From assembly GCF_013409345.1 (NCBI RefSeq), contig NZ_JACCBB010000001.1, positions 3,968,001-4,032,000 of the forward strand: 64,000 bases of DNA. The letters run 5' to 3'. Shown one piece after another: positions 16,314-61,764 of this stretch. The notes below the pieces were generated by a model. That model saw only the letters and a program-made list of their open reading frames with translations, made no database searches and was not told the origin of the DNA. Each line of letters begins with the position of its first letter. The stretch's first letter is position 1. This DNA comes from Kineococcus aurantiacus. Lineage in GTDB: Bacteria; Actinomycetota; Actinomycetes; Actinomycetales; Kineococcaceae. The position numbers were made by a program, and so were the translations under genes.

Positions 16314-16343
16314 GGCCCCCGGCACCTCGAGGTGCCGGGGGCC
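16314..16343. terminator. Perfect 30-base palindrome, probable terminator
   Basis: An uninterrupted palindrome centred on CTCGAG with arms starting GGCCCCCGGCAC. It begins about 20 bases after the CARDB gene stop and could form a 13-15 bp stem. No T-run follows. Confidence 0.6.
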
Positions 16344-18435: not shown

Positions 18436-18459
18436 TGCGTCAGAGCCGTGGAGCGGTCC

Positions 18460-20022
18460 TCAGCCGACGATGTCGCGCGTGACGGCGAACTGCTCGGTCA
18501 GCACGCCGCCGATGATCGACTGCGTCTGGTTGATCTCCTCCACCGCGGCGTGGATCTGCACCAGCGAGGCGGTGACCGCACCCACCCGCGCCTGGATCGT
18601 GGCGACCTTGCTGCTCACGCTCGACGTCGCCTGCTCGGTCTGACCCGACAGCTCCTTGACCTCCTCGGCCACGATCGCGAAACCCCGTCCGGCGTCCCCG
18701 GCCCGGGCCGCCTCGATGGTGGCGTTCAGGGCCAGCAGCTTGGTCTGGGCCGCGATGGCCTGGATGGCGCGCACGACGTCGTTGATCTCCGCGCTGGCCC
18801 GTTCCAGGGCGGCCACCTCGGCGTTGGCCTCCACCGCCAGGGTCTCCCCGTGCGCGGCGACCCCGGTGGCGGCGACCACGTTGCGCTCCACCTCCCCGAT
18901 GGACGCCAGCAGGTCCCCGCCGGCCCGGGTGAGGCGGTCGGCGGCGGCGAACCGCTCCATCGCCTGGCCGATGAGGAAAGCCGTGTTGCGCAGGGCGCTC
19001 TCGCGGCTGGCCGACATGATGAGGGTGCGGGTGGCGAAGAAGTCCATGGTCCCCACCACGCGCCCGGCCACCACCACCGGCAGGCACACCCCCGACTTCA
19101 CCCCCGCCCGCTGGGCCGCCGGGGCCCGCACGCAGTCGGTCATCTCGCCCAGGTCCTCCACGAACACGAAGTCCTGCTTGGCCCACGTCCGCCCCGACAA
19201 CCCGACGCCCTTGGCGAAGGACGCGTTCAAGGTCACCTGCCGGAACTCCGCCCCGGCGTCCCCGGACTCCAGCCCGAAGCGCAGCACGTGCTTCGACGCC
19301 GGCCCGGACTCGTCCAGGCGCCAGAAGGAGCCGTACTGCCAGTCGAACTCGGCGCGGATCGTGTCCAGCGCCGTGCGCAGCGCCTGCTCCTCGCTGGTCG
19401 CCGACGTCAGCGCGTGGATCAGGGTGGAGACCGCCTCGACGTCCTGAGCGGCCTTCTCCTGCCGCACGGCCTCCTCGAGCCGGGCCACCGTCGCCGAGAT
19501 CAGCCGGGCGACCGTGCGCAGCACCGACAGCCGGCCGGCGGAGGGGGTGATCTGCTCGGTGGTGAAGAAGTCCAGCGTCCCGGCCACCTGCCCGCCCTGC
19601 AGCACCGGGAAGCAGATCCCCGAGCGGATCCCGGCCCGCTGCGCCACGGGTGCCCGCACGCAGTCGCTCAGCTCGCTCAGGTCCGCCACGAACACCAGGT
19701 CGCGCTGGCGCCAGGCCCGGCCCGACAGCCCGACGCCCTCGGCGAAGGTGGCCGCCAGGGTCACCCGGCGGAACTCCTCGCCGGCCGTCCCGCTCTCCTG
19801 CTCGAAGCGCAGGACGCGGGCGGCGCGGTCCAGCCGCCAGAACGAGGCGTAGGCCCAGCCGAAGCGGGTCCGGACGGTCTCCAGCGCGATCCCGACGGCC
19901 TCGGCCGGCGTCCGGGCCGTCTCCAGCGCCTGCACGAGGTCGGTCACGGCCTCGACGTCGGCGCGCCCCTCGGCGAGCTCGCGCGCCACGGCGGCGGTTC
20001 CAGCGGTCCGTCGACCGAGCAT
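18460..20022 (-). CDS. Cytosolic chemoreceptor-like protein with two tandem GAF domains
   Basis: Soluble methyl-accepting-chemotaxis-type sensor of 520 residues. Two GAF domains lie at about 25-180 and 205-350. They are near-duplicates: each contains F-W-R-L-D, G-x-E-F-R-x-V-T-L, F-A-x-G-V-G-L-S-G-R, D-C-V-R-A-P and S-G-x-C-x-P-V. An MCP signalling hairpin follows, with the tip sequence [20 protein letters not shown] and [11 protein letters not shown]. No transmembrane helix or HAMP domain is visible, so it should sense an internal signal and couple to CheW/CheA. I chose ATG 20022 (AGGAGA six bases upstream) over 20067, because the longer start would read through a 32-base palindrome. It is divergent from a MarR regulator. 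Confidence 0.87.
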
Positions 20023-20041
20023 CGTCCATCTCCTGTCACTG

Positions 20042-20073
20042 GGCGCGGTGACGACCCGGGTCGTCACCGCGCC
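20042..20073. promoter_or_regulatory. Perfect 32-base palindrome in the chemoreceptor leader
   Basis: Every base from 20042 to 20073 matches its reverse complement, with the centre CCCGGG and arms starting GGCGCGGTGACGAC. It ends eight bases upstream of the AGGAGA site of the chemoreceptor gene, so the transcript could fold into a hairpin next to the ribosome binding site. Alternatively it is a protein-binding site. Confidence 0.6.
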
Positions 20074-20079
20074 GGACTC

Positions 20080-20109
20080 CTTCAGCGCTGAAGTTCTCCA
20101 GCACTGGAG
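20080..20109. promoter_or_regulatory. Two tandem palindromic operators between chemoreceptor and marR-type gene
   Basis: CTTCAGCGCTGAAG (20080-20093) and CTCCAGCACTGGAG (20096-20109) share 11 of 14 bases. Each is palindromic, and their centres are 16 bases apart. This is the expected look of a double site for a dimeric repressor. The MarR protein encoded 134 bases downstream is the natural candidate. Confidence 0.55.
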
Positions 20110-20242
20110 TGATCGACTGCCCGGTGGGACGGCTTGACTACTGCATCCGGAGGATCGTGGCCCCCGACCACCTCCCGGGCCCTGCCCGCCCCCTCCGCCG
20201 GCCCCCGGTCAAGCACCGGAGGTCCTCGACCGATGAAGGACC

Positions 20243-20818
20243 GTGCTGACCACCCCGAGCGCCCACCCGACCGACGCAGCCGGTGTCGACCCGGACCAGG
20301 GCTCCGCCGAGCTCCACCCGGTTCCCGTGGACCGGCTGCCGGGGGTGCGGGAGGAACTGGACGTGATCGCCCGGTCGCCGTTCTCCGGCTCCGAACTCGG
20401 TCACCTGACCCTGCAGGCGGGGCTGGGGGTCCTCGGCATCCTGGACAGCGCCGCCGACCGGGTCGGGCTCCTGGCCAGCGACCTGCGCGCCATGTACCTG
20501 CTGCAGGTCCTCGGGGACCAGAGCGCCGGCTCGCTGGCCCGCCACATGCTGGTGCCCCAGTCCTGCGTGACCCTCATCGCCAAGAGGCTCCAGGAGGAGG
20601 GGCTGGTCACCCGGGCCAAGGACCCGCACGACGGGCGCAAGGTCATCCTCGGCATCACCGGCGCCGGCCGGTGCCGTCTCGACGAGGCCTCCGTCCTGGT
20701 CCGCGCCGAGCTCAGGACGTTCTTCGCCCCCCTGTCACCGGCCAGCGCGGTCGCGCTGGCGGCGCTGCTCGCCGACGTCGTCGAACCCGGTACCTCCGGG
20801 GCAGGGCAGGGGCGCTGA
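20243..20818 (+). CDS. MarR-family transcriptional regulator
   Basis: DNA-binding protein of 191 residues. The winged helix-turn-helix spans about 80-150: SAGSLARHMLVPQSCVTLIAKRLQEEGLVTRAKDP contains the recognition helix, and DGRKVILGITGAGR the wing with the conserved DxR pattern. An N-terminal extension of about 40 residues precedes the usual dimerisation helix. The start is GTG 20243 with GAAGGA upstream. It is divergent from the tandem-GAF chemoreceptor, and two related palindromes lie between them, suggesting autoregulation and control of the sensor gene. The ligand is unknown. Confidence 0.82.
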   Translation: MLTTPSAHPTDAAGVDPDQGSAELHPVPVDRLPGVREELDVIARSPFSGSELGHLTLQAGLGVLGILDSAADRVGLLASDLRAMYLLQVLGDQSAGSLARHMLVPQSCVTLIAKRLQEEGLVTRAKDPHDGRKVILGITGAGRCRLDEASVLVRAELRTFFAPLSPASAVALAALLADVVEPGTSGAGQGR

Positions 20819-20863
20819 CCGCAGCGCACCCCGGCACCGCGGCCGCGCACCGCCCGTGCCCCG

Positions 20864-21706
20864 TCAGGTGGTCGACACGTCGGTGGAACGGGCGACCCCC
20901 TCGCCGGCCTCGACCTCCTCGCGGCGGGCGTCCAGCGCGCCGAGCGCGAGGGAGAACGAGTCCGAGCCCAGCAGGTGGCGCAACCGGCCGCCGTTGCCGG
21001 ACACCCCGAGGTCGACGAGGGCCGCGGCGGCCTTGACCGGGTCACCCAGCTGGGTCCCCGGCATCCGCAGGTGCGCCTGCGTCATCTCGCGCAGGGCGGG
21101 GTAGGCGTCGGTGGTCCTCTCGGGCAGCACCAGGGAGTCCGGGGTCAGGAAGTCGGTGCGGAAGTAGCCGGGCTCGACGAGGCTGACCTGGATCCCGAGG
21201 TCGGCGACCTCCGCGGCGAGGGACTCGGTGAGCCCCTCGAGGGCGAACTTGCCCGCGCAGTACAGGCCCCAGCCGGGGAAGGACGTCATCCCCAGGATGG
21301 AGGAGACGTTGACGACGTGACCTGACCGCTGGGCCCGCAGGATCGGCAGCGCCGCGCGCAGGACGTTCCACACCCCGACGACCTGCACGTCGAGCATGGC
21401 GCGGACCTCGGCGTCGGAGGTCTCCTCGACGGCGCCGAGGAAGCCGTAACCGGCGTTGTTGACGACGACGTCGAGGGTGCCGAACCGCTCGCGGGTCCGC
21501 TGCACCGCCCGCGTGACGGCGGCTCCGTCGGTCAGGTCGAGTTCCAGCGCCAGCAGCCGGGAGGTGTCGACGTCACCGCCGAGGGCAGCGGTCAACCGCT
21601 GCGTCGAGCGGGTGGTGGCCGCGACGTCCTCGCCGCGGTCCAGCAGTCGGGTGACGAGCTCGCGGCCCAGGCCGCGGGAGGTGCCGGTGACGAACCAGGT
21701 GGACAC
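20864..21706 (-). CDS. Short-chain dehydrogenase/reductase (SDR)
   Basis: NAD(P)-dependent oxidoreductase of 280 residues. TGTSRGLG (7-14) is the cofactor-binding loop, NNAG (83-86) the structural motif, and Ser135/136, Tyr149 and Lys153 (YCAGK) the catalytic residues. It belongs to the classical SDRs used on small carbonyl compounds. I chose GTG 21706 because GAAGGAGA precedes it directly and the fold starts at residue 4; an earlier start at 21742 has no such site. It is divergent from an XRE-type regulator, a common SDR/regulator pair in actinobacteria. The substrate is unknown. Confidence 0.88.
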   Translation of the reverse strand: MSTWFVTGTSRGLGRELVTRLLDRGEDVAATTRSTQRLTAALGGDVDTSRLLALELDLTDGAAVTRAVQRTRERFGTLDVVVNNAGYGFLGAVEETSDAEVRAMLDVQVVGVWNVLRAALPILRAQRSGHVVNVSSILGMTSFPGWGLYCAGKFALEGLTESLAAEVADLGIQVSLVEPGYFRTDFLTPDSLVLPERTTDAYPALREMTQAHLRMPGTQLGDPVKAAAALVDLGVSGNGGRLRHLLGSDSFSLALGALDARREEVEAGEGVARSTDVSTT

Positions 21707-21857
21707 GAGGTCTCCTTCGGTCGGAGGAGGTGGGGACAGCACCAGCCTGGGCCGTCAGCAGGGGCCGGGGAGGCCGCTGCCCCGCCCACTCCTGCCTGGG
21801 TACGGCGTACCCCCCTTCGACCTGTCCGTGCCCCGTCCGGACCGGCACACTGGTCGG

Positions 21858-22745
21858 GTGACCTCCCACGGCGAGCACCGCAGGGACCTGGGTGACTTCC
21901 TCCGCAGCCGGCGCGCGGCGACGTCCCCGGAGGCGGTGGGGCTGCCGGTGGCGCCGGGGCGCCGGGTCGCCGGGCTGCGCCGGGAGGAGGTCGCCCGGCT
22001 CGCCGGGGTGAGCGTGGACTACTACACGCGCCTGGAGCAGGGCCGCCACGCCAGCCCGTCGGGCGCTGTGCTGGACGCGCTGGCCCGCGCGCTGGGCCTG
22101 GACCCGGCGGGTCGCGCGCACCTGCACGACCTGGCGGGGCCGTCCACGGCGAGGCACGAACGCCCGGTGGTGCAGCGGGTGCGGCCCGCGGTCCACCAGT
22201 TGCTGGACTCCCTGCGTGACCACCCGGCGTTCGTGGTCGGCCGGCGCACCGACGTGCTGGCCTCCAACGCGCTGGCCCGGGCGCTGCTGACCGACTGGGA
22301 CGCGCTGCCGCCTCGCCGGCGCAACTACGTCCGCTGGCTCCTGCTGGACCCGGGTGCGCGTGCGCTGTTCCCCGACTGGCCGGTGCTGGCGGCCGAGGCG
22401 GTCGGCACGTTGCGCCTGGACGCCGGCCGCCACCCCGACGACCCGCTGCTCAACGCCCTCGTCGGGGAGCTGACGATCGGCTGCCCGGAGTTCGCCCGGT
22501 GGTGGTCCGACCGCCGCGTGCACGAACGCACCCACGGGACCAAGCGCCTGCACCACCGCGTGGTGGGGGACGTCACGATCCACTTCGAGGCGCTGGTGCT
22601 GGCCGGGGAGGACGACCAGACGCTGTTCACGTACTCGGCCGAGCCGGGGAGCGCTTCGGCGGACAACCTGCGGCTGCTGTCGTCGTGGGCCACGGACCCC
22701 GGTCCTGCCGGGTCCCGCCGGCCGCGCGATCCGGCGACGCCCTGA
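21858..22745 (+). CDS. XRE-family regulator with MmyB-like ligand domain
   Basis: Transcriptional regulator of 295 residues. The N-terminal helix-turn-helix has the sequence PGRRVAGLRREEVARLAGVS followed by VDYYTRLEQGR, the hallmark of this actinobacterial group. It is joined to an MmyB-type C-terminal domain (about 105-280), with RNYVRWLLLDP, LFPDW and THGTKRLHHRVVGDVTIHFEAL. Such domains are thought to bind small hydrophobic ligands. The start is GTG 21858. It is divergent from the SDR gene, which it probably regulates. Confidence 0.88.
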   Translation: MTSHGEHRRDLGDFLRSRRAATSPEAVGLPVAPGRRVAGLRREEVARLAGVSVDYYTRLEQGRHASPSGAVLDALARALGLDPAGRAHLHDLAGPSTARHERPVVQRVRPAVHQLLDSLRDHPAFVVGRRTDVLASNALARALLTDWDALPPRRRNYVRWLLLDPGARALFPDWPVLAAEAVGTLRLDAGRHPDDPLLNALVGELTIGCPEFARWWSDRRVHERTHGTKRLHHRVVGDVTIHFEALVLAGEDDQTLFTYSAEPGSASADNLRLLSSWATDPGPAGSRRPRDPATP

Positions 22746-22784
22746 CGTCTCGGCCGTCGCGGGGTCCCCGGGGCACCGCGGGGC

Positions 22785-22955
22785 TCACCAGAGCTTGCCG
22801 CGCCAGCTCAGCCCCTTCAGCAGGCGGACGCTCACGCGCCCCGTGGAGGACACCGTCGCGCGCCCGATCCGCTTCGTGACGCTCACCCCGGAGCGCCCGG
22901 CGTTCACGCGCACGCCCTTGCCGAGGTCCTTGGCCCAGCGGAACGAGAACGGCAC
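22785..22955 (-). CDS. Small DUF4236-like protein
   Basis: A 56-residue protein: an N-terminal FSFRWAKDLGKGVRVNAGRSG and then SVTKRIGRATVSSTGRVSVRL. The pattern F-x-F-R, basic-G-V-R-x-N, S-G-V-S-V matches the DUF4236 family of very short proteins of unknown function, which are often at the N-terminus of envelope-associated proteins. The start is GTG 22955, five bases after AGGAG; the GTG at 22961 would leave no spacing. It stands alone on the minus strand, convergent with the XRE regulator gene and in tandem with the ABC transporter operon upstream of it. Too short to confirm by composition, but codon use is typical of the genome. Confidence 0.6.
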   Translation of the reverse strand: MPFSFRWAKDLGKGVRVNAGRSGVSVTKRIGRATVSSTGRVSVRLLKGLSWRGKLW

Positions 22956-23066
22956 CTGCACTCCTGACGTCGGACGGTCACGGGACTCGCCCGCGCAACG
23001 CGCGGACCGGCCCGCGGGGTTCCCGCCGCACCGCCGCGTCCCCCTCGGGGCAGCGGGCCCACCCGC

Positions 23067-23084
23067 ACGGCACCACGGTGCCCG
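23067..23084 (-). terminator. Hairpin after the first ABC transporter operon
   Basis: GGCACC-AC-GGTGCC (23069-23082) is a perfect 6-base inverted repeat 14 bases after the stop of the permease gene at 23097. Short, and without a T-run; tentative. Confidence 0.35.
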
Positions 23085-23096
23085 GAGGGGAGGGGG

Positions 23097-23990
23097 TCAG
23101 CCCTTCAGGGCGCCGCCGAAGTTGAACGCCCCGCCTAGCCGGCGGGACAGCAGCACGTACAGGACGACGACGGGCAGCGTGTACAGGACCGAGTACGCCG
23201 CCAGCTGACCCCACTGGACCGACCCGTACTGCCCGAAGAAGGTGAAGATGCTCACCGAGGCGGGCAGCCGGTCGGGGGACAGCAGCAGGACGAAGGGGAT
23301 GAAGAAGTTCCCCCACATCCCGATGAACGTGAAGATCGTCACGACGGACAGCCCGGGCCACATGAGGGGCAGGACGATGTGGCGCAGCGTCTGCATGGAG
23401 CTGGCCCCGTCGGTCCAGGCCGCCTCCTCCAGCGTCAGCGGCACGCCGTCCATGAAGTTCTTGCACAGGAAGATCGACATGGGCAGCGCGGTCGTCGCCA
23501 TGAACGCGACCGTCCCGCCGATGGTGTCGACGAGGTTGAGCTGCACGAACAGCCCGTACACCGGGACCATGATCGCCGTGATGGGCAGGCCGGTCGAGAA
23601 GAGGATGGTCAGCAGGAACGGCCGCTTGTAGCGCGTCTCGAAGCGGGACAGCGGGTAGGCGGCCAGCGTCGCCACGACGATGGCGATGAACGTCGAGCCC
23701 ACGCACAGGACCAGGCCGTTCCACATCGGCCGGTACGTGGTCTCCGGGGTCAGGACGGCCCGGAAGTTGTCGAAGCTGAAGCCCGTGCCGGGCCACTCCA
23801 GCTTCAGCCCCGCGCGGGCGTCGAAGGCCGCGAAGACGACCCACAGCAGCGGGACGAGGAACATCACGCCGAGCACGGCGGTGACGACGTTCACGACGGC
23901 CGTGGCGACCCAGGTGCGGGGTCCCACGGGGCGGTGCGAGGTGACCGCGAGGGGGGTGGCGGTCGGCGTGGTGGAGGTCTCGGTGGTCAT
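23097..23990 (-). CDS. Carbohydrate ABC transporter permease (MalG/UgpE type)
   Basis: Second membrane subunit of a CUT1 sugar importer, 297 residues with about six transmembrane helices. The EAA loop EEAAWTDGASSMQTLRHIVLP (about residues 190-210), which contacts the ATPase, is intact. A soluble N-terminus of about 28 residues precedes helix 1. It starts at ATG 23990, four bases after the stop of the other permease, so the two are co-translated. The order binding protein, MalF-type, MalG-type is standard. No ATPase gene follows, so a shared ATPase (MsiK-like) encoded elsewhere is expected. Confidence 0.9.
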   Translation of the reverse strand: MTTETSTTPTATPLAVTSHRPVGPRTWVATAVVNVVTAVLGVMFLVPLLWVVFAAFDARAGLKLEWPGTGFSFDNFRAVLTPETTYRPMWNGLVLCVGSTFIAIVVATLAAYPLSRFETRYKRPFLLTILFSTGLPITAIMVPVYGLFVQLNLVDTIGGTVAFMATTALPMSIFLCKNFMDGVPLTLEEAAWTDGASSMQTLRHIVLPLMWPGLSVVTIFTFIGMWGNFFIPFVLLLSPDRLPASVSIFTFFGQYGSVQWGQLAAYSVLYTLPVVVLYVLLSRRLGGAFNFGGALKG

Positions 23991-23994
23991 CGCG

Positions 23995-24915
23995 TCAGTC
24001 CTCGCGCAGCAGGCGCATGTAGACGATGGAGAAGACGCCGCCGACCGCGAGCAGGACGAGCGCGATGGCGGTGCCGTAGCCGATCTGGCTGAACGAGAAG
24101 GCCTGCTCGTACATGTACAGCGGCAGGGTCTGGCTCTTGGTCCCCGGGCCGCCCTTGGTCATGGTGTAGATCAGGCCGAAGACCGACAGGGTCTGCAGGG
24201 TGATGAGCATGAGGTTCGTCGTCACGGTCCGCTTGATCATGGGGATCGTGACGTGCCGCAGCCGGGCCCAGCCCGTCGCGCCGTCCATCTCCGCTGCCTC
24301 CTCGATCTCGGCCGGGATCTCCGAGAGCGCCGCGTTGTAGACGAGCATCGAGAAGGCCGTCCCGCGCCAGACGTTCGCCAGCGAGACCGCGATGATCGGC
24401 AGGGTGTAGAGCCAGTTCTGGCCCAGCCCCAGCACGCCGATGACCTCGTTGAGCGTGCCGTCCTTGGCCAGGAAGGCGTACCAGAGGTACCCGGCGACGA
24501 CCTCGGGGATGACCCAGGCGCCGATGACGGTGATGCCGACGAGGGTGCGGACCACCTTGGCGGCCCGCTTCTGCAGCAGGGCCAGGGCCAGCCCCAGGAC
24601 GTTCTGCCCGACGACGGCGGACAGGATGGTGAACACCAGCGTCAGGACCACGGAGTTCCCGAACGCCTCGCTGCCGAAGGCGGCCCGGAAGTTGTCCAGG
24701 CCGACGAACTGCGTGTCGCCCGACCCCGCACCGGTCAGCGCCGTGTTCGTGAACGCGGCGTAGACGCACCACAGGATCGGGCCGGCCAGGAACACCAGCA
24801 GCAGCACGACCGCCGGGGTCAGCGGCAGCGCCCTGGCGATGTCGACCCGGACCGGGTGCGTCCTGCGCCGCAGCTGGGGGCCGGACGGTGCCCCCGGTCG
24901 TGTCAGCGTGGCCAC
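23995..24915 (-). CDS. Carbohydrate ABC transporter permease (MalF/UgpA type)
   Basis: First membrane subunit of the same CUT1 importer, 306 residues. The hydrophobic N-terminus starts at PLTPAVVLLLVFLAGPILWC. The EAA loop IEEAAEMDGATGWARLRHVTIPM (about 200-222) is present, and six helices can be counted. The start is ATG 24915 with GGAGGAG upstream, 19 bases after the binding-protein gene. The substrate is not deducible from the permease. Confidence 0.9.
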   Translation of the reverse strand: MATLTRPGAPSGPQLRRRTHPVRVDIARALPLTPAVVLLLVFLAGPILWCVYAAFTNTALTGAGSGDTQFVGLDNFRAAFGSEAFGNSVVLTLVFTILSAVVGQNVLGLALALLQKRAAKVVRTLVGITVIGAWVIPEVVAGYLWYAFLAKDGTLNEVIGVLGLGQNWLYTLPIIAVSLANVWRGTAFSMLVYNAALSEIPAEIEEAAEMDGATGWARLRHVTIPMIKRTVTTNLMLITLQTLSVFGLIYTMTKGGPGTKSQTLPLYMYEQAFSFSQIGYGTAIALVLLAVGGVFSIVYMRLLRED

Positions 24916-24934
24916 CGGAACTCCTCCCTGCGAC

Positions 24935-26296
24935 TCACAGCGTCGCGGTCTTGTCCTCGCCGACGATGCCCTTGACGGCCTCGTCGTAGGCCTTCGCGGC
25001 CTCGTCGGGGCTGGCCTGACCGGTGACGACGGCCTCCATCGCGACCTGGATCTCGTTGGACACCCGCGGGTAGTCGGTGTTCTGCGGGCGGTACTGGGTC
25101 ACCGGGACGAGGCTGGAGAAGAACTCCAGCGTCGGGTTGGAGCCGGTGTACGTCGGGTCGGCGGCGACGTCCTTGCGGACGGCGACGGCGGCGGAGTTGA
25201 TGTTGTAGCGCAGGTTGTTGTCGAAGGACGTCAGGGTCGAGATGACCTTCCAGGCGTCGTCGGCGTTGGAGGCGTTCTTCGTCATGGCCCACGTCCAGCC
25301 GCCGGACATCGAGATCTTCCCGTCGCCGGAGCCGTCCTTCGTCGGCATGGGGGCCTGGCCCATGACGTCGTTCCACTGGGGCCAGGGGGCGCCGCCGGTG
25401 TCCAGCCAGGTGCTGGAGACCCAGGAACCGTCCAGGTCGATGGCCAGGGTGCCGCCGGGCAGGAACTCCTCCTGCACCCGGGTGCCCACCTGCGCGTCGA
25501 GCGCGACCGAGGGGTCCGGGGCGAGCTTCTCGTCGAAGATCGTCTTGATGAACCGCAGGGAGTCGACGAACTCGGGGCTGCCGACGTTCCACTTGTCCTG
25601 GCCGGGGTCGTACAGCGTGGAGCCGGTGCCGTAGAACAGCATCTCGAACCCCTGCATGGACGCCGCCTCACCGGCGGCCTTGCCGGCGAACACGTTGATC
25701 GGCGTGACGCCCGGCACCTTGCCCTTGATCTCGCGGCAGGCCGCGAGGATGTCGTCCCACGAGGTGGGCGCCCAGTCCGCGGCCAGGCCCGCCTTGGTGA
25801 GCAGGTCCTTGTTGAACCACAGGGCGCGGGTGTCGGTGCCGTCGGGGACCCCGTACGTCTTGCCGTCGGCGGCCTTGGCGGCGCCCTTGGCGACGTCCTG
25901 GAACTGGTCCCACTCGTCCCACTGGCCCAGCCAGCTGTCCAGGGGCTGCAGGTACCCGGCGGTGATGTCGGAGTTGATGAGGAACGTGTCCTCGTACACC
26001 ACGTCCGGGGAGGTGCGCGGCGAGCGCATCATGAGCTGGAGCTTGGTGTAGTAGTCGTTCTCGGAGGCGACGATCGGGACGAGCTCCACGGTCTTGCCGG
26101 AGTTCGCCTTCTCGTAGGCGCTCTTGACCGTGGTGAGGTAGTCCTTCATCACGGTGCCCGAGCCCCACTGCTGGTAGGCGACCTTGATCGCCCCGGACGA
26201 GTCATCGCCGCCCTGGGACCCGCCGCCGCAGGCTGCGGTTCCGAGCACGGTTCCGGCACCCAGGCCGGCATAGGTCAGGAAGCTACGACGACGCAC
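24935..26296 (-). CDS. Sugar ABC transporter substrate-binding lipoprotein
   Basis: Extracellular solute-binding protein of family 1, 453 residues. The N-terminus MRRRSFLTYAGLGAGTVLGTAAC combines a twin-arginine-like motif (RRRSF) with a lipobox, so it is a membrane-anchored lipoprotein, possibly exported folded. The mature part has ITVxL-like strands (VELVPIV, DVVYEDTFLIN, GVPDGTDTRALWFNKDLLTKAGL) and a Trp-rich binding region typical of oligosaccharide binders. It is the first gene of the operon reading 26296 to 23097. Its promoter overlaps that of the divergent ROK gene. Confidence 0.9.
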   Translation of the reverse strand: MRRRSFLTYAGLGAGTVLGTAACGGGSQGGDDSSGAIKVAYQQWGSGTVMKDYLTTVKSAYEKANSGKTVELVPIVASENDYYTKLQLMMRSPRTSPDVVYEDTFLINSDITAGYLQPLDSWLGQWDEWDQFQDVAKGAAKAADGKTYGVPDGTDTRALWFNKDLLTKAGLAADWAPTSWDDILAACREIKGKVPGVTPINVFAGKAAGEAASMQGFEMLFYGTGSTLYDPGQDKWNVGSPEFVDSLRFIKTIFDEKLAPDPSVALDAQVGTRVQEEFLPGGTLAIDLDGSWVSSTWLDTGGAPWPQWNDVMGQAPMPTKDGSGDGKISMSGGWTWAMTKNASNADDAWKVISTLTSFDNNLRYNINSAAVAVRKDVAADPTYTGSNPTLEFFSSLVPVTQYRPQNTDYPRVSNEIQVAMEAVVTGQASPDEAAKAYDEAVKGIVGEDKTATL

Positions 26297-26377
26297 AACC
26301 CACTCCCTCGTGGCGGTGTCCGATCTCTGGCCGGCCGGCCGGGCGGTCCGGGGATCGTCCGGCCGGCCGTTGCGAGG

Positions 26378-26407
26378 AGACTAAATCCAGTGGATTGACG
26401 GTGTCAA
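26378..26407 (-). promoter_or_regulatory. Overlapping divergent promoters with a ROK-type operator
   Basis: Minus strand: TTGACA (26407-26402), 18 bases, TAGTCT (26383-26378), driving the binding-protein gene. Plus strand: TTGACG (26395-26400) with CATCAT 18 bases on (26419-26424), driving the ROK gene. The two -35 boxes face each other and form the inverted repeat TTGAC-GGT-GTCAA. A second inverted repeat, AATCC-AGT-GGATT (26384-26396), fills the minus promoter's spacer and would block both promoters if occupied, most likely by the ROK protein. Confidence 0.6.
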
Positions 26408-26482
26408 CGGATGGGCCGCATCATTCTGGGAACGATCCCAACGTCGCTCCCCGAGCGGGGCGGCGAGCGCGAGGAGGCGCGG

Positions 26483-27784
26483 GTGCGACGAGGCACGAAC
26501 CTGCCCTGGGTGGGCGACTACAACCAGGCCGTCGTCCTCGACGGCGTCCGCCGCCACCCCGGCACGTCCCGGACCGACCTGGCCGCGGCCACCGGCCTGA
26601 CCCTGCAGACGGTGTCCAACATCGTCCGGCGGCTCATCGAGCGCGGCCTCGTCCAGGAGGGGGAGCCGCTGCTGCGCCCGGGCGCCCGCGCCGGCGGCAA
26701 GCCGCGGACCGCCCTGGCGGTCCGGCCCGGCGCGGCGCTGGCCGTCGGCCTGCAGTTCGAGCGCGAGCACGTCGACGCGGTCCTGCTCGACCTGACCGGG
26801 GACGTGCTGGCCGTCGACCGCGAACCGCTGCCGGACCCCCCGGACGCGACCGGCGGGGCGACCGGCGGGGCGGCCGAGGCCGCGGTGGCCCGCGCGACGG
26901 CCGTGGTGCGGCGGCTGGTCCGCACCCGCGGGTCCGCCGACGCCGTGCTCGGCGTCGGGGTGGCCGTCCCCGGGCCGCTCGACTTCGCCGGGCCCGTGCG
27001 CAGCTCGGCGATCAACCTGCCCGGCTGGCGCGGGGTCGCCGTCGCCGACATGCTCACGGCCTCGACCGGGCTGCCGGTCCTGGTGGAGAACGACGCGACC
27101 GCCGCCGCCGTCGGCGACCTGTGGCGCTCGCGGCGGGTCGGGCGCAGCTTCCTCTACGTCCACGTCGGCGCCGGGATCGGTGGCGGGGTGGTCGTGCGCG
27201 ACGAGGTCCTGCGGGGGGAGTCGGGCAACGCGGGGGAGATCGGGCACGTCGTCGTCGAACCCGCCGGGCCGCCCTGCTCCTGCGGTGCCGTCGGGTGCCT
27301 GGAGGCCGTGGCCGCCCCCGCGGCGGTCGTGCGCCGCTACGCCGAACGGGTCGGGCGCGAGGCCGCCCGCGCCGCGGGCCTGCGGCTGGCCGAGCGCAGC
27401 GTCCTGGACGACCACGACCGCCTCGGCGTGCGCGCCGCCGCGGGGGACGAGGTCGCCGCCGCGGAGCTGCGGACCGCGGCGCTGGCCGTCGCCCGCGTCG
27501 TGCTGGGCGTGGTCAACGTCGTCGACGTCAGCGAGGTCGTGCTCGGCGGTGCGGGCCTGCGCCACGCGGGGGAACGGGTCCGCGACGCCGTGCGGGCGGG
27601 GCTGGGCCTGGCCATGACCCGCGAGGTGCACCCCGTCGAGGTCCGCTTCAGCGACGCCGGCGAGCAGGCCGGTGCGCTGGGGGCGGCCAGCGCCGTCCTG
27701 CACGAGGCGCTGTCCTCGACGTGGGTGGGTGTGCACGTGCCCGCGCGCGAGATCGTGATCTCCCCGGTGGCACCCGTGCACTGA
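26483..27784 (+). CDS. ROK-family transcriptional repressor
   Basis: Sugar-responsive regulator of 433 residues, probably controlling the divergent ABC importer. The HTH is at about 25-65 ([30 protein letters not shown]). The ROK kinase-like fold shows GVAVPGPLDFAG, VENDATAAAVGDLW, HVGAGIGGG, and the zinc motif GEIGHVVV...CSCGAVGCLEAV, all intact, then VLGGAGL. I chose GTG 26483, preceded by GAGGAGG; the upstream ATG 26411 would include promoter DNA. A likely operator lies in the shared promoter region at 26384-26396. The inducer is unknown, presumably the transported sugar. Confidence 0.88.
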   Translation: MRRGTNLPWVGDYNQAVVLDGVRRHPGTSRTDLAAATGLTLQTVSNIVRRLIERGLVQEGEPLLRPGARAGGKPRTALAVRPGAALAVGLQFEREHVDAVLLDLTGDVLAVDREPLPDPPDATGGATGGAAEAAVARATAVVRRLVRTRGSADAVLGVGVAVPGPLDFAGPVRSSAINLPGWRGVAVADMLTASTGLPVLVENDATAAAVGDLWRSRRVGRSFLYVHVGAGIGGGVVVRDEVLRGESGNAGEIGHVVVEPAGPPCSCGAVGCLEAVAAPAAVVRRYAERVGREAARAAGLRLAERSVLDDHDRLGVRAAAGDEVAAAELRTAALAVARVVLGVVNVVDVSEVVLGGAGLRHAGERVRDAVRAGLGLAMTREVHPVEVRFSDAGEQAGALGAASAVLHEALSSTWVGVHVPAREIVISPVAPVH

Positions 27785-27868
27785 GCCGGGCCCCGGCGTT
27801 CTGGCAGGATGCCGCTCGGCTCCGAGGGCGTGGCCGCACACGACGTTCGACCGATCACCGAGGTTCCG

Positions 27869-29335
27869 ATGGCCGTCACCGCCCCCCCGTCCGCGATCGA
27901 CCGCTGGTTCGAGGTCAGCGCCCGCGGGTCCACCGTGGGCCGGGAGGTCCGCGGCGGCCTCGCGACCTTCTTCACGATGGCCTACATCGTGGTGCTCAAC
28001 CCGCTGATCATCGGCACGCACGCCGACGCCACCGGGAAGTACCTCGGCGGTGGGGACAGCCCGAACCTGGCCGCGGTCGCCGCCGGCACCGCCCTGGTGG
28101 CCGGGGTCGTGACGCTGCTCATGGGGTTCGTCGCCAACTACCCCCTCGCCCTGGCGACCGGGCTGGGCCTGAACGCCTTCCTCGCCTTCGGGGTGGCCAG
28201 CCTGCCGGACATGACGTGGGCCGACGCCATGGGGCTGGTCGTCATCGAGGGGCTCGTCATCCTCGTGCTCGTCCTCACCGGGCTGCGCGAGGCCGTCTTC
28301 CGGGCCGTGCCGGCACCGCTGAAGACGGCCATCAGCGTGGGCATCGGCCTGTTCATCACCATCGTCGGGCTCGTCGACGCCGGGTTCGTCCGGGCCGGCA
28401 GCGGCACGCCCCTCGAACTGGGCATCGGCGGCTTCCTCGCCGGCTGGCCCACGCTCGTCTTCGTCGTCGGCCTCGTGCTGATGATCGTCCTCATGGCCCG
28501 CGGCGTGCGCGGCGCCATCCTCGGCGGGATCGTCGCGGCGACCGTCCTCGCGGTGGTCGTCGAGGCCGTGGCCCACCTCGGGCCGCGCACCGGGGCCGAC
28601 GGGTCGGTCGTCAACCCCCGCGCCTGGGGCCTGAACGTCCCCGCGCTGCCGGACTCGTGGGTCTCCGCCCCCGACTTCGCCACGCTGGGGCACTTCTCCC
28701 TGCTGGGCTCGTTCGAGGCCGTCGGCTGGGTCACGGTCGTCCTGCTGGTCTTCACCCTGCTGCTGGCCGACTTCTTCGACACCATGGGCACGGTCGTCGC
28801 GATCGGCGCCGAGGGCGACCTGCTCGACGCGGAGGGCAACCCCCCGCGCATGCGCCGGATCCTCGTCGTCGACTCCATCGCCGCCGCCGCCGGGGGCGCC
28901 GGCGGCGTCTCGAGCAACACGAGCTTCATCGAGTCCGCCACGGGTGTGGGCGAGGGGGCCCGCACCGGGCTGGCCAGCGTCGTGACGGGCGTCGCGTTCC
29001 TGCTCACGACGTTCCTGGCCCCCGTCGTGGCGATCGTGCCCTACGAGGCGGCGACCCCCGCCCTGGTCGTCGTCGGGTTCCTCATGATGACCCAGGTCAA
29101 GGGCATCGACTGGACCGACCTGGAGATCGCCGTCCCGGCGTTCCTGACGATCGTGCTCATGCCGTTCACGTACTCCATCAGCGCCGGCATCGGGGCGGGG
29201 TTCGTCGCGTTCGTCGTGGTCAAGCTCGCCCGCGGCAAGGCCCGCGCGGTCCACCCCGTGATGTGGGTGGTGGCGGCCCTGTTCGTCGTCTACTTCGCCA
29301 TCGACCCGATCAAGCAGCTGCTCGGGGTCTCCTGA
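27869..29335 (+). CDS. NCS2-family purine permease (AzgA/PbuG-like)
   Basis: Proton-coupled importer of hypoxanthine, guanine or adenine, 488 residues. FFTMAYIVVLNPLIIG near the N-terminus, GLGLNAFLAFG (substrate-binding TM segment), FDTMGTVVAIG, SSNTSFIESATGVGEGARTGL and PALVVVGFLMM are the signatures of the AzgA branch of nucleobase transporters. About 13 membrane segments can be counted. The start is ATG 27869 with GAGG upstream, chosen over the in-frame start at 27809, which would add an unrelated leader. It follows the ROK gene by 84 bases, but its function is unrelated to sugar uptake. It is convergent with the dehydrogenase gene. Confidence 0.92.
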   Translation: MAVTAPPSAIDRWFEVSARGSTVGREVRGGLATFFTMAYIVVLNPLIIGTHADATGKYLGGGDSPNLAAVAAGTALVAGVVTLLMGFVANYPLALATGLGLNAFLAFGVASLPDMTWADAMGLVVIEGLVILVLVLTGLREAVFRAVPAPLKTAISVGIGLFITIVGLVDAGFVRAGSGTPLELGIGGFLAGWPTLVFVVGLVLMIVLMARGVRGAILGGIVAATVLAVVVEAVAHLGPRTGADGSVVNPRAWGLNVPALPDSWVSAPDFATLGHFSLLGSFEAVGWVTVVLLVFTLLLADFFDTMGTVVAIGAEGDLLDAEGNPPRMRRILVVDSIAAAAGGAGGVSSNTSFIESATGVGEGARTGLASVVTGVAFLLTTFLAPVVAIVPYEAATPALVVVGFLMMTQVKGIDWTDLEIAVPAFLTIVLMPFTYSISAGIGAGFVAFVVVKLARGKARAVHPVMWVVAALFVVYFAIDPIKQLLGVS

Positions 29336-29374
29336 CCCGGGCGCCGGGGGAGCACCCGGGGCACCCGCGGCGGC

Positions 29375-30424
29375 TCAGGCGTCGGGCCAGACGATGCCGA
29401 CCTTGCCGTGGGTGCCGCTGTCGGCGATCCGGTACGCCTCGCCGGCCTCGGCGAGGGGCCGGGTGTCGGTCACGACGACCTGCGGGTGCAGGCCCGTGCG
29501 GTCCAGCAGCTCCAGCAGCTCGGCCATGTGCACCGTCGAGGTGACCCACGACCCGTGGATCGTCAGCTGCTGGTGGATGACGTGCTCGCTGACGTCGACC
29601 GACAGGTGACCGCCCTCGCCGACGAGGGCCACCCGCCCCCAGCGCCGGGTGTGCTGCAGGGCGAACAGCTGCCCCGCACCGGACCCGCTGCAGTCCACGG
29701 CCGTCTCGGCCCCGCCGGGCAGCACCGCCTCGAACGCCTCGCGGGTGGGTTCGGCGGCCCCGCTCACCGCGCCCAGGCGCAGGGCCAGGTCCCGGCGCTC
29801 GGCCGAGGGGTCCACCCCGACGACGGTGCGGACGCCCAGCGCCTGGGCCAGCAGCCCAGCGGCCAGGCCGACCGGGCCCAGCCCGACGACGAGCAGGCGG
29901 TCGGCGCCGTTGACGTCCAGGCGGCGCAGCGCCTCGTAGGCGGTGCCGAACCCGCACGCCACGCACGCGCCGTCGAGGTAGGTGAGGCTGTCGGGCAGGA
30001 CGAGCAGGTCGCGCTCCTCGGCGAGCAGGTAGTCGGCGTGGCCGCCGTCGCGCTGCCAGCCGTAGGCCGCGCGCCGCGGCGACGTGCAGCTGATCTGGTA
30101 CCCGCGGCGGCAGTCGTCGCACTGCCCGCAGCCGGAGATGTGGTAGACGACGACGCGGTCGCCGGGGCGCACGCGGTCCACGCCCGTCCCGACGCCCACG
30201 ACCCGGCCCGCCGGTTCGTGACCGCCCACGACGCCCTGGTAGGCCTCGGGCCCCTCGCCCAGGTGCTCGCGGTAGATGGCCCGCAGGTCGCTGCCGCAGA
30301 TCGTCGAGGCCCGCACCGCGAGGAGGACCTGCCCGTGCCCGGGCGCGGGGACGGGGACCTCCTGCAGGTCCACCACCCGCCCACCGGGCAGGAAGGCCGC
30401 GTTCATCGTGGGCGGGATCGTCAT
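29375..30424 (-). CDS. Zinc-dependent alcohol/polyol dehydrogenase (MDR superfamily)
   Basis: NAD(P)-dependent dehydrogenase of 349 residues. Catalytic zinc ligands are in ICGSD (Cys) and GGHEPAG (His-Glu). The structural zinc site has four cysteines in CGQCDDCRRGYQISC. The Rossmann loop GLGPVGLAAG (about 175-184) is followed by an acidic residue in VVGVDPSAE, favouring NAD. The start is ATG 30424 with GGAGG upstream. The architecture resembles sorbitol/threonine dehydrogenases. It lies between the two sugar ABC systems and is divergent from the second one, so a role in sugar or polyol oxidation is plausible. A 6-base hairpin (30444-30461) lies in its leader. Confidence 0.88.
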   Translation of the reverse strand: MTIPPTMNAAFLPGGRVVDLQEVPVPAPGHGQVLLAVRASTICGSDLRAIYREHLGEGPEAYQGVVGGHEPAGRVVGVGTGVDRVRPGDRVVVYHISGCGQCDDCRRGYQISCTSPRRAAYGWQRDGGHADYLLAEERDLLVLPDSLTYLDGACVACGFGTAYEALRRLDVNGADRLLVVGLGPVGLAAGLLAQALGVRTVVGVDPSAERRDLALRLGAVSGAAEPTREAFEAVLPGGAETAVDCSGSGAGQLFALQHTRRWGRVALVGEGGHLSVDVSEHVIHQQLTIHGSWVTSTVHMAELLELLDRTGLHPQVVVTDTRPLAEAGEAYRIADSGTHGKVGIVWPDA

Positions 30425-30666
30425 CGTGGACCTCCGGTCGTGGGCCCCCGACGGTGGGGGCACGGGTGCAGCGGACGTTAGCGCCTGCCCCGGGGGCCCG
30501 GGCGCCCGCCCGGAGGCATGCCGTGCCGCCCACAGGGGCGGTACACGCTTTCCCGGAGGGCGCGGGACGCCCCGGCGCGGGAAGTGGGCGCTGAACGCTT
30601 GACGAGCGGTGCGGCACGTCCCCAAACTCGGGGCTACCGCTTTGAATCGTGTCAGGCGGTGCAAGA

Positions 30667-30684
30667 ACCGGCGCAGCCGCCGGT
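30667..30684 (+). promoter_or_regulatory. Leader hairpin before the second ABC operon
   Basis: ACCGGCG-CAGC-CGCCGGT forms a perfect 7-bp stem 26 bases before the GTG at 30711. The remaining intergenic DNA (30425-30666) contains TTGACG at 30599-30604 without a convincing -10 partner, and the 4-base repeat CCCC-N6-GGGG at 30620-30633. I see no gene in it. Confidence 0.35.
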
Positions 30685-30710
30685 CCGTGGTCTCGAAGAG
30701 GAGACGAACC

Positions 30711-32042
30711 GTGACACGCAAGAACCCCCGACCCGCCCGGCTCGCCCTCGCCCTCGCGGTCGCCCTGACGCTGACCCCCCTCACGGCCTGCAGCGCCGGG
30801 AGCCTCGGCTCGTCCTCGGAGTCCTCCGACGGCGGGACGACCATCACGTGGCTCACCGGCTCCGACGAGACGGCCCAGACGACCGCCAGGACCATCGTCG
30901 CGGCGTTCGAGAAGGCCAACCCCGACATCACCGTCGAGCTCGACGGCCGCCCGGCCGGGGCCGAGGGGGACAACCTCGTCAAGACCCGGTTGCAGACCGG
31001 CAGCATGCCGGACGTCTTCGACTACAACTCCGGCTCGCTGTTCCAGCAGATCGCCCCCGAGAAGAACCTCACCGACCTCACCGGGGACGCCGCCGTCGCC
31101 GCCGTCGACGAGGCGTTCAGCCCGCAGGTCTCGGTCGGCGACGACGTCTACGGCGTTCCCTACGGCACCGCCTTCGGCGGCGGCGTCATGTACAACAAGA
31201 AGGTCTACGAGGAGCTGGGCCTGGAGGTCCCGACGACGTGGGCGGAGTTCCTCGCCAACGCCGACGCGATCAAGGCCGCCGGCAAGACCGCCGTCATCCA
31301 GACCTACGGCGAGACGTGGACCGCGCAGCTGCCCATCCTCGGCGACTTCCACAACGTGGCCGCCGCGGACCCGGACTGGGCGCAGGAGTACACGGCCAAC
31401 CGGAGGAAGTACGCCACCGACCCCGTGGCCCTCGCCGGGTTCCAGCACCTGCAGGAGATCCACGACCGCGGCTACGCGAACGCCGACTTCGCCTCGGCCA
31501 AGGTCCCCGACGGCATGCGCCTGCTCGCCGCCGGCGACGGCGTCATGTACCCGATCCTGTCGGGGAACATCACGACGCTGGCGGCGGCCGCCCCCGACAA
31601 GGTGAACGACGTCGGGTTCTTCGCCCTGCCGGGCACCGACGCGGCGTCCAACGGCCTGACGGCGTGGTTCCCCAACGCGGTCTACATCCCCAACACGACC
31701 GAGGACGCCCAGCTGACGGCGGCCAAGAAGCTGCTCGCCTTCATCGCCAGCCCCGCCGGCTGCGAGGCCCAGAGCCAGGCCAGCCCGCCCACCGGTCCGT
31801 ACCTGGTCGAGGGCTGCACCCTGCCGGCCGACGTCCCGCAGGTCACCAAGGACGTCCAGGCCTACTTCGACGCCGACAAGCAGTCGCCCGCCCTGGAGTT
31901 CCTGTCCCCGGTCAAGGGCCCGAACCTCGAGCAGCTGTGCGTCGAGGTCGGCTCGGGCATCACTCCGGCCGCCGACGCGGCGAAGCTCTACGACCAGGAC
32001 GTCGAGAAGCAGGCCCAGCAGCTCGGCCTCGAGGGCTGGTGA
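30711..32042 (+). CDS. Sugar ABC transporter substrate-binding lipoprotein
   Basis: Family 1 extracellular binding protein, 443 residues. The signal sequence MTRKNPRPARLALALAVALT ends in a lipobox LTAC, making it a lipoprotein. The mature domain starts with ITWLTGSDETAQTTARTIVAAF and contains MPDVFDYNSGS, YGVPYGTAFGGGVMYNKKVYEELGL and LSGNITTLAAAAPD, all normal for CUT1 binding proteins. The start is GTG 30711 with GAGGAGA upstream. It is the first gene of an operon with two permeases and a GH78 rhamnosidase, so a rhamnosylated oligosaccharide or rhamnose is the likely ligand. Confidence 0.9.
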   Translation: MTRKNPRPARLALALAVALTLTPLTACSAGSLGSSSESSDGGTTITWLTGSDETAQTTARTIVAAFEKANPDITVELDGRPAGAEGDNLVKTRLQTGSMPDVFDYNSGSLFQQIAPEKNLTDLTGDAAVAAVDEAFSPQVSVGDDVYGVPYGTAFGGGVMYNKKVYEELGLEVPTTWAEFLANADAIKAAGKTAVIQTYGETWTAQLPILGDFHNVAAADPDWAQEYTANRRKYATDPVALAGFQHLQEIHDRGYANADFASAKVPDGMRLLAAGDGVMYPILSGNITTLAAAAPDKVNDVGFFALPGTDAASNGLTAWFPNAVYIPNTTEDAQLTAAKKLLAFIASPAGCEAQSQASPPTGPYLVEGCTLPADVPQVTKDVQAYFDADKQSPALEFLSPVKGPNLEQLCVEVGSGITPAADAAKLYDQDVEKQAQQLGLEGW

Positions 32043-32048
32043 GCTGAG

Positions 32049-32987
32049 GTGTCGGCGACGATCAGCACCCCACCACCCGCCACGCGCACCGGTGCGGGCG
32101 GGCGCGCGCGAGGGGACGGGCGGCAGCGTCGCCGGCGCAGCCCCTACCCCCACTGGTTCTACCTGCCCGCCGCGGTCGTCTACGCGGTCCTCTTCCTGGT
32201 CCCCACCCTGCTGTCGTTCTACTTCAGCCTCACGCGCTGGACGATCTTCGACAGCGAGTTCATCGGGCTGGGCAACTTCGCCCAGTTCTTCTCCGAACCG
32301 GCCCTGACGAAGGGCTTCGTCAACACCTTCGTCTACGCCGTCGTCACCTCCGGGGCCAAGGTCGTCCTGGGGATGGCCCTGGGCCTGCTGCTGACCTCCC
32401 GGATCGTCGGCCGGGGGTACCTGCGGTCGGTGGTGTTCTTCCCCGTCCTGGTCTCCACGGTCGGGGTCGGGATCACCTTCCAGGTGCTCATGAACCCCGA
32501 GAAGGGCGTCATCAACCACGCTCTCGCGGTCTTCGGGATCGACCAGGTCGGCTGGCTCACCAACCCCTCCCTCGCCCTCTTCTCGGTGGCCCTGGTCGAC
32601 GTCTGGAAGGGCGTCGGCCTGGCCACCGTCATCTACATGGCCGGGATCGTCTCGATCCCGAACGAGTACCGCGAAGCGGCCAAGGTCGACGGGGCCGGTG
32701 CGTGGAGCACGTTCCGCAACATCGTCCTGCCGCTGTCCTGGCCCGCGACGTCGACCGTCGTGACGCTCTCGCTCATCGGGGGCCTGCGGTCGTTCGACCT
32801 CATCTGGGCCATGACCCGGGGCGGGCCCGGCTTCACCTCCGACGTCATCGCCTCGGTGATCTACAAGCAGTACCAGGCCGGGTTCTACGGCCTGTCGACG
32901 GCCGGCAACGTCATCCTCTTCCTCGCCGTCACCGCCATCGTCGTCCCGCTGACGCGGTACCTGTCCCGCAAGGAGGTGGAGATGTGA
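32049..32987 (+). CDS. Carbohydrate ABC transporter permease (MalF type)
   Basis: Membrane subunit of 312 residues with a basic N-terminus (about 35 residues), then six helices starting at FYLPAAVVYAVLFLVPTLLSFY. The EAA loop YREAAKVDGAGAWSTFRNIVLPL is intact. GTG 32049 starts six bases after the binding-protein stop, and its own stop overlaps the next permease (GTGA). No ATPase gene belongs to this set. Confidence 0.9.
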   Translation: MSATISTPPPATRTGAGGRARGDGRQRRRRSPYPHWFYLPAAVVYAVLFLVPTLLSFYFSLTRWTIFDSEFIGLGNFAQFFSEPALTKGFVNTFVYAVVTSGAKVVLGMALGLLLTSRIVGRGYLRSVVFFPVLVSTVGVGITFQVLMNPEKGVINHALAVFGIDQVGWLTNPSLALFSVALVDVWKGVGLATVIYMAGIVSIPNEYREAAKVDGAGAWSTFRNIVLPLSWPATSTVVTLSLIGGLRSFDLIWAMTRGGPGFTSDVIASVIYKQYQAGFYGLSTAGNVILFLAVTAIVVPLTRYLSRKEVEM

Positions 32988-33874
32988 GCACCCTCGCCGA
33001 CGCCCCCGTCAAGAGGCCCCTCGCCCCCGCGCGGAACACCCGCACGGCCTCCGCGCTCACCCGGTGGGGACTGGGGGGCCTGGCGATCGTGGCCAGCGTC
33101 GTCGTGTTCCTCGTGCCGTTCGCGTTCATCGTCACCACCGCCGTCATGGACGCCCAGCAGGCCGGGGAGTTCGCCCTGGCCTGGCCGCGGAACCTGCAGT
33201 TCGTGGAGAACTTCACCACCGTCCTGCAGGCGCGGGACTACCTGCTGGTCATCGCCTTCATCAACTCCACCATCCTCACCGTGGTGTCGGTGACGGCACT
33301 GGTCGTGCTCGGGGCGATGGTCGCCTTCGTGCTGCAGCGCCGCCGGTCCCGCCTCACCGGGCTGGTGAACTTCCTCGTGCTGGCCGGGCTCATCATGCCC
33401 CCGGCCGTCGTCCCGACGATCTGGGTCCTGCAGCGGCTGGGCCTGTTCGGGGGGATGCCCGGGCTCATCCTCGTCGAGATCGCCTACGGCCTCTCGTTCA
33501 CGGTCCTGCTGTTCCGCGCCTTCCTGGGCACCGTCCCGCGGGAACTGGACGAGGCGGCCGTCCTCGACGGCGCCGGCCCGTTCCGGCTGTTCTTCCGGGT
33601 GATCCTGCCGCTGCTGCGGCCGGTCACGGTGACGATCATCGTGGTGCAGTCGGTGACCATCTTCAACGACTTCACCAACCCGCTGTACTTCGCCCCCGGC
33701 GACCAGAACGCGACGGTGCAGCTGACGCTGTTCAACTTCCAGAGCCAGAACCTCACGTCCTACAACCTGCTGTTCATGGACATCCTGCTCATCACGATCC
33801 CGCCGCTGGTCATGTACCTGTTCTTCAACCGTCAGATCGTCGCCGGCATGACGTCCGGCGCCGTCAAGGGCTAG
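32984..33874 (+). CDS. Carbohydrate ABC transporter permease (MalG type)
   Basis: Second membrane subunit, 296 residues. Helix 1 starts at GLAIVASVVVFLVPFAFIVT. The EAA loop ELDEAAVLDGAGPFRLFFRVILPLL is well conserved. GTG 32984 overlaps the stop of the previous permease by four bases, implying coupled translation. The rhamnosidase gene begins 25 bases downstream. Confidence 0.9.
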   Translation: MSTLADAPVKRPLAPARNTRTASALTRWGLGGLAIVASVVVFLVPFAFIVTTAVMDAQQAGEFALAWPRNLQFVENFTTVLQARDYLLVIAFINSTILTVVSVTALVVLGAMVAFVLQRRRSRLTGLVNFLVLAGLIMPPAVVPTIWVLQRLGLFGGMPGLILVEIAYGLSFTVLLFRAFLGTVPRELDEAAVLDGAGPFRLFFRVILPLLRPVTVTIIVVQSVTIFNDFTNPLYFAPGDQNATVQLTLFNFQSQNLTSYNLLFMDILLITIPPLVMYLFFNRQIVAGMTSGAVKG

Positions 33875-33899
33875 ACCGCTCCCAGGAGGAGACCACCCG

Positions 33900-61170: not shown

Positions 61171-61764
61171 CGGGCGCGGCGGCGGGCCGGCGGTCCGGGA
61201 CTCTCCCGGCCGCGGTCCGCCGTCGGCCGTCCTGCCGCGGATCGGGCACAGGGCGAGGGTGGGGGAGGGGTGCGCCCGGCCCGGCTGCACCCTCCCGTCG
61301 GCCCCGGCCTCGGCAGGAGCCCGGCCCACGTGGGGCCGTGGCCACGTGCAGCCGGTGCCCTGGCCGCCGTGGTGCCCTCGTCGCGACCCGCCGCGACGGT
61401 CTGCTCCACCCGGGTCGTCGGGGGACCGGCCGCTGCGTGCGCCGCGGGGTGGTCCGGGCGCTGCTGGTCGGCCCGTGGGGCTCGAGGGTCGGTGGGCACC
61501 GCCCGGGGTGCGGCTGCGTCGCCGGGGGAGGATCGTGGTGCCGGCCTGCCGCGGGTTGCGGCGGCGCCGCCGGCCGATCCGCGGCGGTGAGGCCCCCCGG
61601 CGGGACGGACCGACGGACGAGCTGACCTTCGTAGCGTACAGGAGTTGCCTGGTCACGCTACGCTGTCAACGACGCAGATCGACACGCACGTCTGCGTGCA
61701 ACGTCTGCGGAGTTTCGCACCGTCAGGCCCATCCCGGGGCGTGGCGGTCGGGGGGAGGACCACG
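61171..61764. other. 594-base intergenic region upstream of the sigma factor gene
   Basis: No convincing gene. It begins with a small hairpin CCGGGA-CTC-TCCCGG (61195-61209), a possible rtcB terminator. Near the sigma gene are a perfect 8-base inverted repeat CGTAGCGT/ACGCTACG (61630-61637 and 61655-61662) and the hairpin CACGCA-CGTC-TGCGTG (61683-61698). TACGCT (61659-61664) could be a -10 box. These suggest regulated transcription of the sigma gene with a long 5' leader. Confidence 0.45.

Follow-up and report, generated by a model that had tools for sequence, protein, structure and literature searches.

An exact 32-bp palindrome in the leader of a Kineococcus aurantiacus chemoreceptor gene, and its possible role as an mRNA hairpin

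Hairpins in 5' leaders that stabilize the mRNA are established for a number of bacterial genes, including ompA, ermC, and aprE (excerpts of PMC7148126 and PMC3997798). Because such hairpins are known (same excerpts), one formed by the palindrome described here would be of a familiar kind, and at most the palindrome works like leader hairpins already known. A consensus has also been given for flagellar promoters, with TAAA at -35 and GCCGATAA at -10 (excerpt of PMC8325347); the motif TCAAG-N15-GTCGAT found at this locus resembles it. The literature searched yielded no study of the chemoreceptor leader itself.

The window (the whole stretch of Kineococcus aurantiacus DNA analyzed, 64,000 nucleotides) contains, at positions 20042-20073, the sequence GGCGCGGTGACGACCC followed directly by GGGTCGTCACCGCGCC. 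Together these make 32 bp identical to their own reverse complement, with no spacer, so that the mismatch-free palindrome claimed in a sequence-only reading of this DNA is indeed there. No exact palindrome in the window is longer; the runner-up, at 16314-16343, has 30 bp, and the next after it 20 bp. Under a first-order Markov model derived from the window, 0.0004 exact palindromes of 32 bp or more would be expected per 64 kb, or 0.03 per 5.03 Mb. In 20 stretches sampled elsewhere from this genome, 400 kb in all, the longest was 24 bp, in two cases. The earlier judgment that such a sequence is very unlikely by chance is borne out by both figures. The palindrome is real and too long for chance; it is ordinary in kind, and striking in its perfection alone. 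The 30-bp palindrome lies 22 bp past the stop codon of a CARDB-domain gene, and looks like a terminator.

The gene downstream is on the minus strand (18460-20022) and encodes a soluble chemoreceptor of 520 amino acids with GAF_2, GAF, and MCPsignal domains. In alignments, its start codon, ATG 20022-20020, matches the M[FL] start of its orthologs. A Shine-Dalgarno sequence, AGGAG, can be read on the same strand at 20030-20034, separated by 7 nt from both the ATG and the palindrome; the palindrome's edge and the start codon are 20 bases apart. The palindrome therefore does adjoin the ribosome binding site, as had been noted, but with a gap of seven bases instead of eight. The chemoreceptor reading frame remains open upstream through the palindrome, and includes an in-frame GTG at 20067, within the stem, preceded by its own Shine-Dalgarno-like GAAGGAG (score 5 of 6).

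On the other side of the palindrome, a putative flagellar-type (FliA/WhiG) promoter motif, TCAAG-N15-GTCGAT(CA), is found on the minus strand at 20110-20137 (20112-20137 without the CA), assigned by comparison with ortholog leaders and with the consensus. It aligns with the same spacing in the leaders of four orthologs from the genus (G001, G003, G004, and G005) and as a variant in a fifth (G009), and a close form precedes many Actinoplanes orthologs. A loosened form has 26 matches in the genome, vs. none for a reversed control. At FliA/WhiG-type promoters, transcription starts some 7 bases past the -10 element, and a start near 20103 would be expected here. Since the motif lies upstream on the coding strand, the palindrome should be transcribed; a start downstream of 20042 seems unlikely. 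Two FliA/WhiG-family sigma factor genes are found in the genome, one WhiG-type and one a second member of the family. The WhiG-type gene is in the window, at 61645-62766 (NF004935, 437.7 bits vs. a cut-off of 343).

As minus-strand RNA, the palindrome is predicted to form a stem of 14 bp capped by a 4-nt CCGG loop (-29.5 kcal/mol). For the leader from the expected transcript start to the Shine-Dalgarno sequence, none of 500 shuffled versions was as stable (z = -4.8), and in the predicted fold the Shine-Dalgarno sequence is free of stem pairing. Of the 126 leaders from this genome used as controls, one (L143) has a perfect stem as long or longer, and in our reading it looks like the terminator of a converging gene. 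The control sets (42 and 126 leaders) were drawn up with a crude gene finder based on third-position GC, so that some of their starts will be wrong. Leader hairpins do not appear to be a property of the promoter class: 13 promoter-motif leaders, the chemoreceptor's among them, did not differ from 42 controls in fold z-score (p = 0.57), and a regulon-wide explanation was rejected. These 13 were chosen by hand from the 26 motif matches, leaving out those with no start with a usable Shine-Dalgarno sequence in range, those inside genes, and those whose leader was too short; one further leader (L133), the copy on contig C2 discussed below, was dropped as identical to another (L129). Rfam covariance models gave no matches at E ≤ 1 in 19500-20600 of the window.

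A genome-wide search for further copies, as had been suggested, found just two sites within three mismatches of the 32-mer: the one in the window and an exact copy on contig C2 (174,614 bp). The second is inside a 16.4-kb repeat, in which C2:2-16410 corresponds to window positions 18459-34849 at 99.7% identity, and is therefore not independent evidence. The 50 differing positions are nearly all one-base indels, between 24.4 and 34.0 kb of the window, which suggests either assembly noise or a recent duplication. With this as its sole additional copy, the palindrome is not a dispersed (REP-like) repeat. Loose matches (three mismatches) to its 22-bp core number five in this genome, four of them inside predicted coding sequences (one at a gene edge) and one intergenic, and between zero and three in each of 10 other genomes of the genus. 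An origin in a mobile or phage element was also rejected: no viral contigs had the core, and no plasmid records resembled window positions 19000-20300. A separate 1,410-bp element, 99.5% alike on contigs C1 and C2 (L011:15552-16961 and L014:3920-5329), is perhaps an insertion sequence.

The sequence-only reading had taken a lack of conservation in relatives to count against it, and such a lack is what was found: the palindrome is absent from all five orthologous leaders of the genus (G001, G003, G004, G005, and G009), and would seem, from these comparisons, to be peculiar to this genome or lineage. Nor was a shared structure of another kind found. None of the five leaders exceeded its shuffles in a test for short-loop stems, and RNAalifold on the six leaders gave no supported common structure, with a covariation term (+2.39) that speaks against one; the conservation or compensation in close relatives that would support a stabilizing hairpin was not seen. 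In the six-leader alignment, G001, G003, G004, and G005 have all or part of the left arm CCGGCGCGG, and the right arm is unaligned. Strong folds of other sequence are predicted for the G001 and G005 leaders (z = -2.1 and -3.2); those of G003, G004, and G009 are not beyond shuffles. The G001 stem has a left arm, GCGCGG, in common with the one described here, but paired to G001's own right arm, and no homology is claimed for it because its inner stretch is 17 nt and there is no aligned right arm (alignment A2).

Orthologs of the Actinoplanes type have a different, 7-bp stem, GAGYGRC-N5-GYCRCTC, immediately upstream of the ribosome site and typically ending 14-24 nt before the start codon. Over 20 orthologs, 83.6% of alignment cells pair at this stem, vs. 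37-50% in slid controls; four of the seven pairs have changes on both sides, and 9 of 500 shuffles reach the covariation score. Short-loop stems in these leaders are modestly beyond shuffles (Wilcoxon p = 0.015), with three of the 20 singly at p < 0.05. The alignment (A1) is of 20 of the 30 loci L018-L047, excluding those of Pseudokineococcus, Kineosporia, Cellulomonas, Mobilicoccus, and Acidobacteria; four rows are gapped at the stem and six (L018, L019, L024, L026, L031, and L046) misfit it, and all were counted. Two loci with wrong start picks (L090 and L094) and one with no start (L091) were left out of the ortholog rows. Examples of the covarying stem are at about L023:2929-2947 and L039:2896-2914, and it occurs in some of the leaders of L018-L046. 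The alignment suggests that a stem in the position of the palindrome has been modestly selected for. As this is a different hairpin in a like place, it supports a mode of action by analogy, not by homology.

The region upstream also has smaller inverted repeats. A MarR-family regulator gene, by family assignment, is divergent from the chemoreceptor gene (20243-20818, plus strand), and between them, near the expected transcript start, is a 14-bp exact dyad, CTTCAGCGCTGAAG (20080-20093), which is a candidate MarR operator. A second, near-perfect copy, CTCCAGCACTGGAG (20096-20109), is part of a tandem duplication of 16 bp that none of the five orthologs has. In G004, where the MarR protein is 65% identical and the divergent MarR-receptor pair is kept, the 32-mer is absent and a dyad, CTTCAGTTCTGAAG, is found beside the -10 element. 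The search form TTCAGNNCTGAAG occurs in three of 11 genomes of the genus. In this genome (with its duplicate on C2) and in G004 it stands at the chemoreceptor promoter, and G001 has a single match at another place. Because it sits at this promoter in both of the former, the dyad is a better candidate for a MarR site than is the palindrome, and we take its doubled form in this leader to be the likelier site.

Of the functions the earlier reading had offered, an mRNA hairpin is the best supported, with a promoter motif upstream and a fold far beyond shuffles; a repressor site is weakened by G004. Our preferred explanation, to which we would give a probability of about 0.5, is that the palindrome acts as a lineage-specific hairpin in the 5' leader of the chemoreceptor mRNA, shielding the transcript and leaving the ribosome site open. 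A sigma factor of the FliA/WhiG class would start transcription near 20103. The 32 transcribed bases, between the promoter motif and the Shine-Dalgarno sequence, would then fold in the cell into the 14-bp stem with its 4-nt loop. The stem would end at the start of the 30S footprint, and the Shine-Dalgarno sequence and start codon would therefore remain single-stranded. It could stabilize the message by blocking decay from the 5' end (entry of RNase J or E), and could insulate the ribosome site by preventing upstream sequence from pairing with it.

The palindrome might also have no function, having arisen when template switching during replication perfected a quasi-palindrome that was then tolerated in the leader. 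Its restriction to this genome, its exactness to the base, and the fast-changing leader around it would all fit, as would a left arm held in whole or in part by orthologs next to a right arm that does not align. This is possible but rather unlikely, given that the palindrome stops 7 nt short of the Shine-Dalgarno sequence and that selection seems modestly to favor a stem in the corresponding position of Actinoplanes leaders. At the DNA level, the palindrome could be the binding site of a regulator, dimeric or tetrameric and possibly the MarR protein encoded divergently, that represses the chemoreceptor gene as a roadblock. The perfect symmetry, a position downstream of the promoter, and the adjacent MarR gene speak for this, but we consider it doubtful. 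A MarR operator would be expected to be kept together with the MarR ortholog and the promoter, and in G004, with the same divergent gene pair, there is the dyad and no palindrome. There is no second, unlinked copy within three mismatches in the genome, four of the five loose core matches are within predicted coding sequences, and the TTCAGNNCTGAAG dyad is the better candidate for MarR.

The remaining possibilities seem to us improbable. A terminator or attenuator, at which transcription of the leader would halt unless overridden, could be suspected from the very stable, GC-rich stem and from the terminator-like character of the other long palindrome in the window, 22 bp past a stop codon. There is, however, no run of T on either strand at the 32-bp palindrome, a terminator scan there was empty, the Shine-Dalgarno sequence directly follows the stem, and Rfam offers no match; it would be quite surprising if this were its role. 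Slightly harder still to credit is selection of the start codon, in which the stem would conceal GTG 20067 and so force translation from ATG 20022. The frame is open through the palindrome and the GTG, with its Shine-Dalgarno score of 5 of 6, is in the stem, but orthologs begin at the position of ATG 20022 and there is no sign that the GTG is used. The most elaborate scheme is also the one we believe least: a two-layer switch in which the tandem CTTCAG dyads would give MarR control of the sigma-28-type start, and the hairpin, with or without a bound protein, would choose between GTG and ATG or set the level of translation. No RNA control of this kind was described for this receptor family in the literature searched.

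If the leader hairpin explanation is right, a motile actinobacterium has a chemotaxis gene that depends on a strong hairpin in its leader, at the edge of the ribosome site, and Actinoplanes has taken up unrelated hairpins in the same position. Leader structure could then be a recurring and fast-evolving means of tuning chemoreceptor levels, with an effect expected to be modest and of a known sort.

Each of the known systems most like this locus shares some of its features. Like MarR-family operators at divergent promoters, it has a divergent MarR gene and intergenic inverted repeats, but instead of the 32-mer it is CTTCAGNNCTGAAG that it has in common with the relative that keeps MarR. With the flagellar promoters (sigma-28, FliA/WhiG) known from motile actinobacteria it shares TCAA at -35 and GYCGAT at -10, ahead of a gene for chemotaxis, and the genome has FliA/WhiG sigma factor genes; the palindrome, however, is outside the promoter and is absent from the other motif-bearing genes examined. 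The leader hairpins of ompA in E. coli, ermC and aprE in B. subtilis, and pufBA in Rhodobacter are a further comparison. Unlike these, the stem predicted here is free of mismatches, and is directly before the Shine-Dalgarno sequence and not at the extreme 5' end; like them, it would be a strong stem-loop in a 5' leader, upstream of the ribosome binding site and separate from it.
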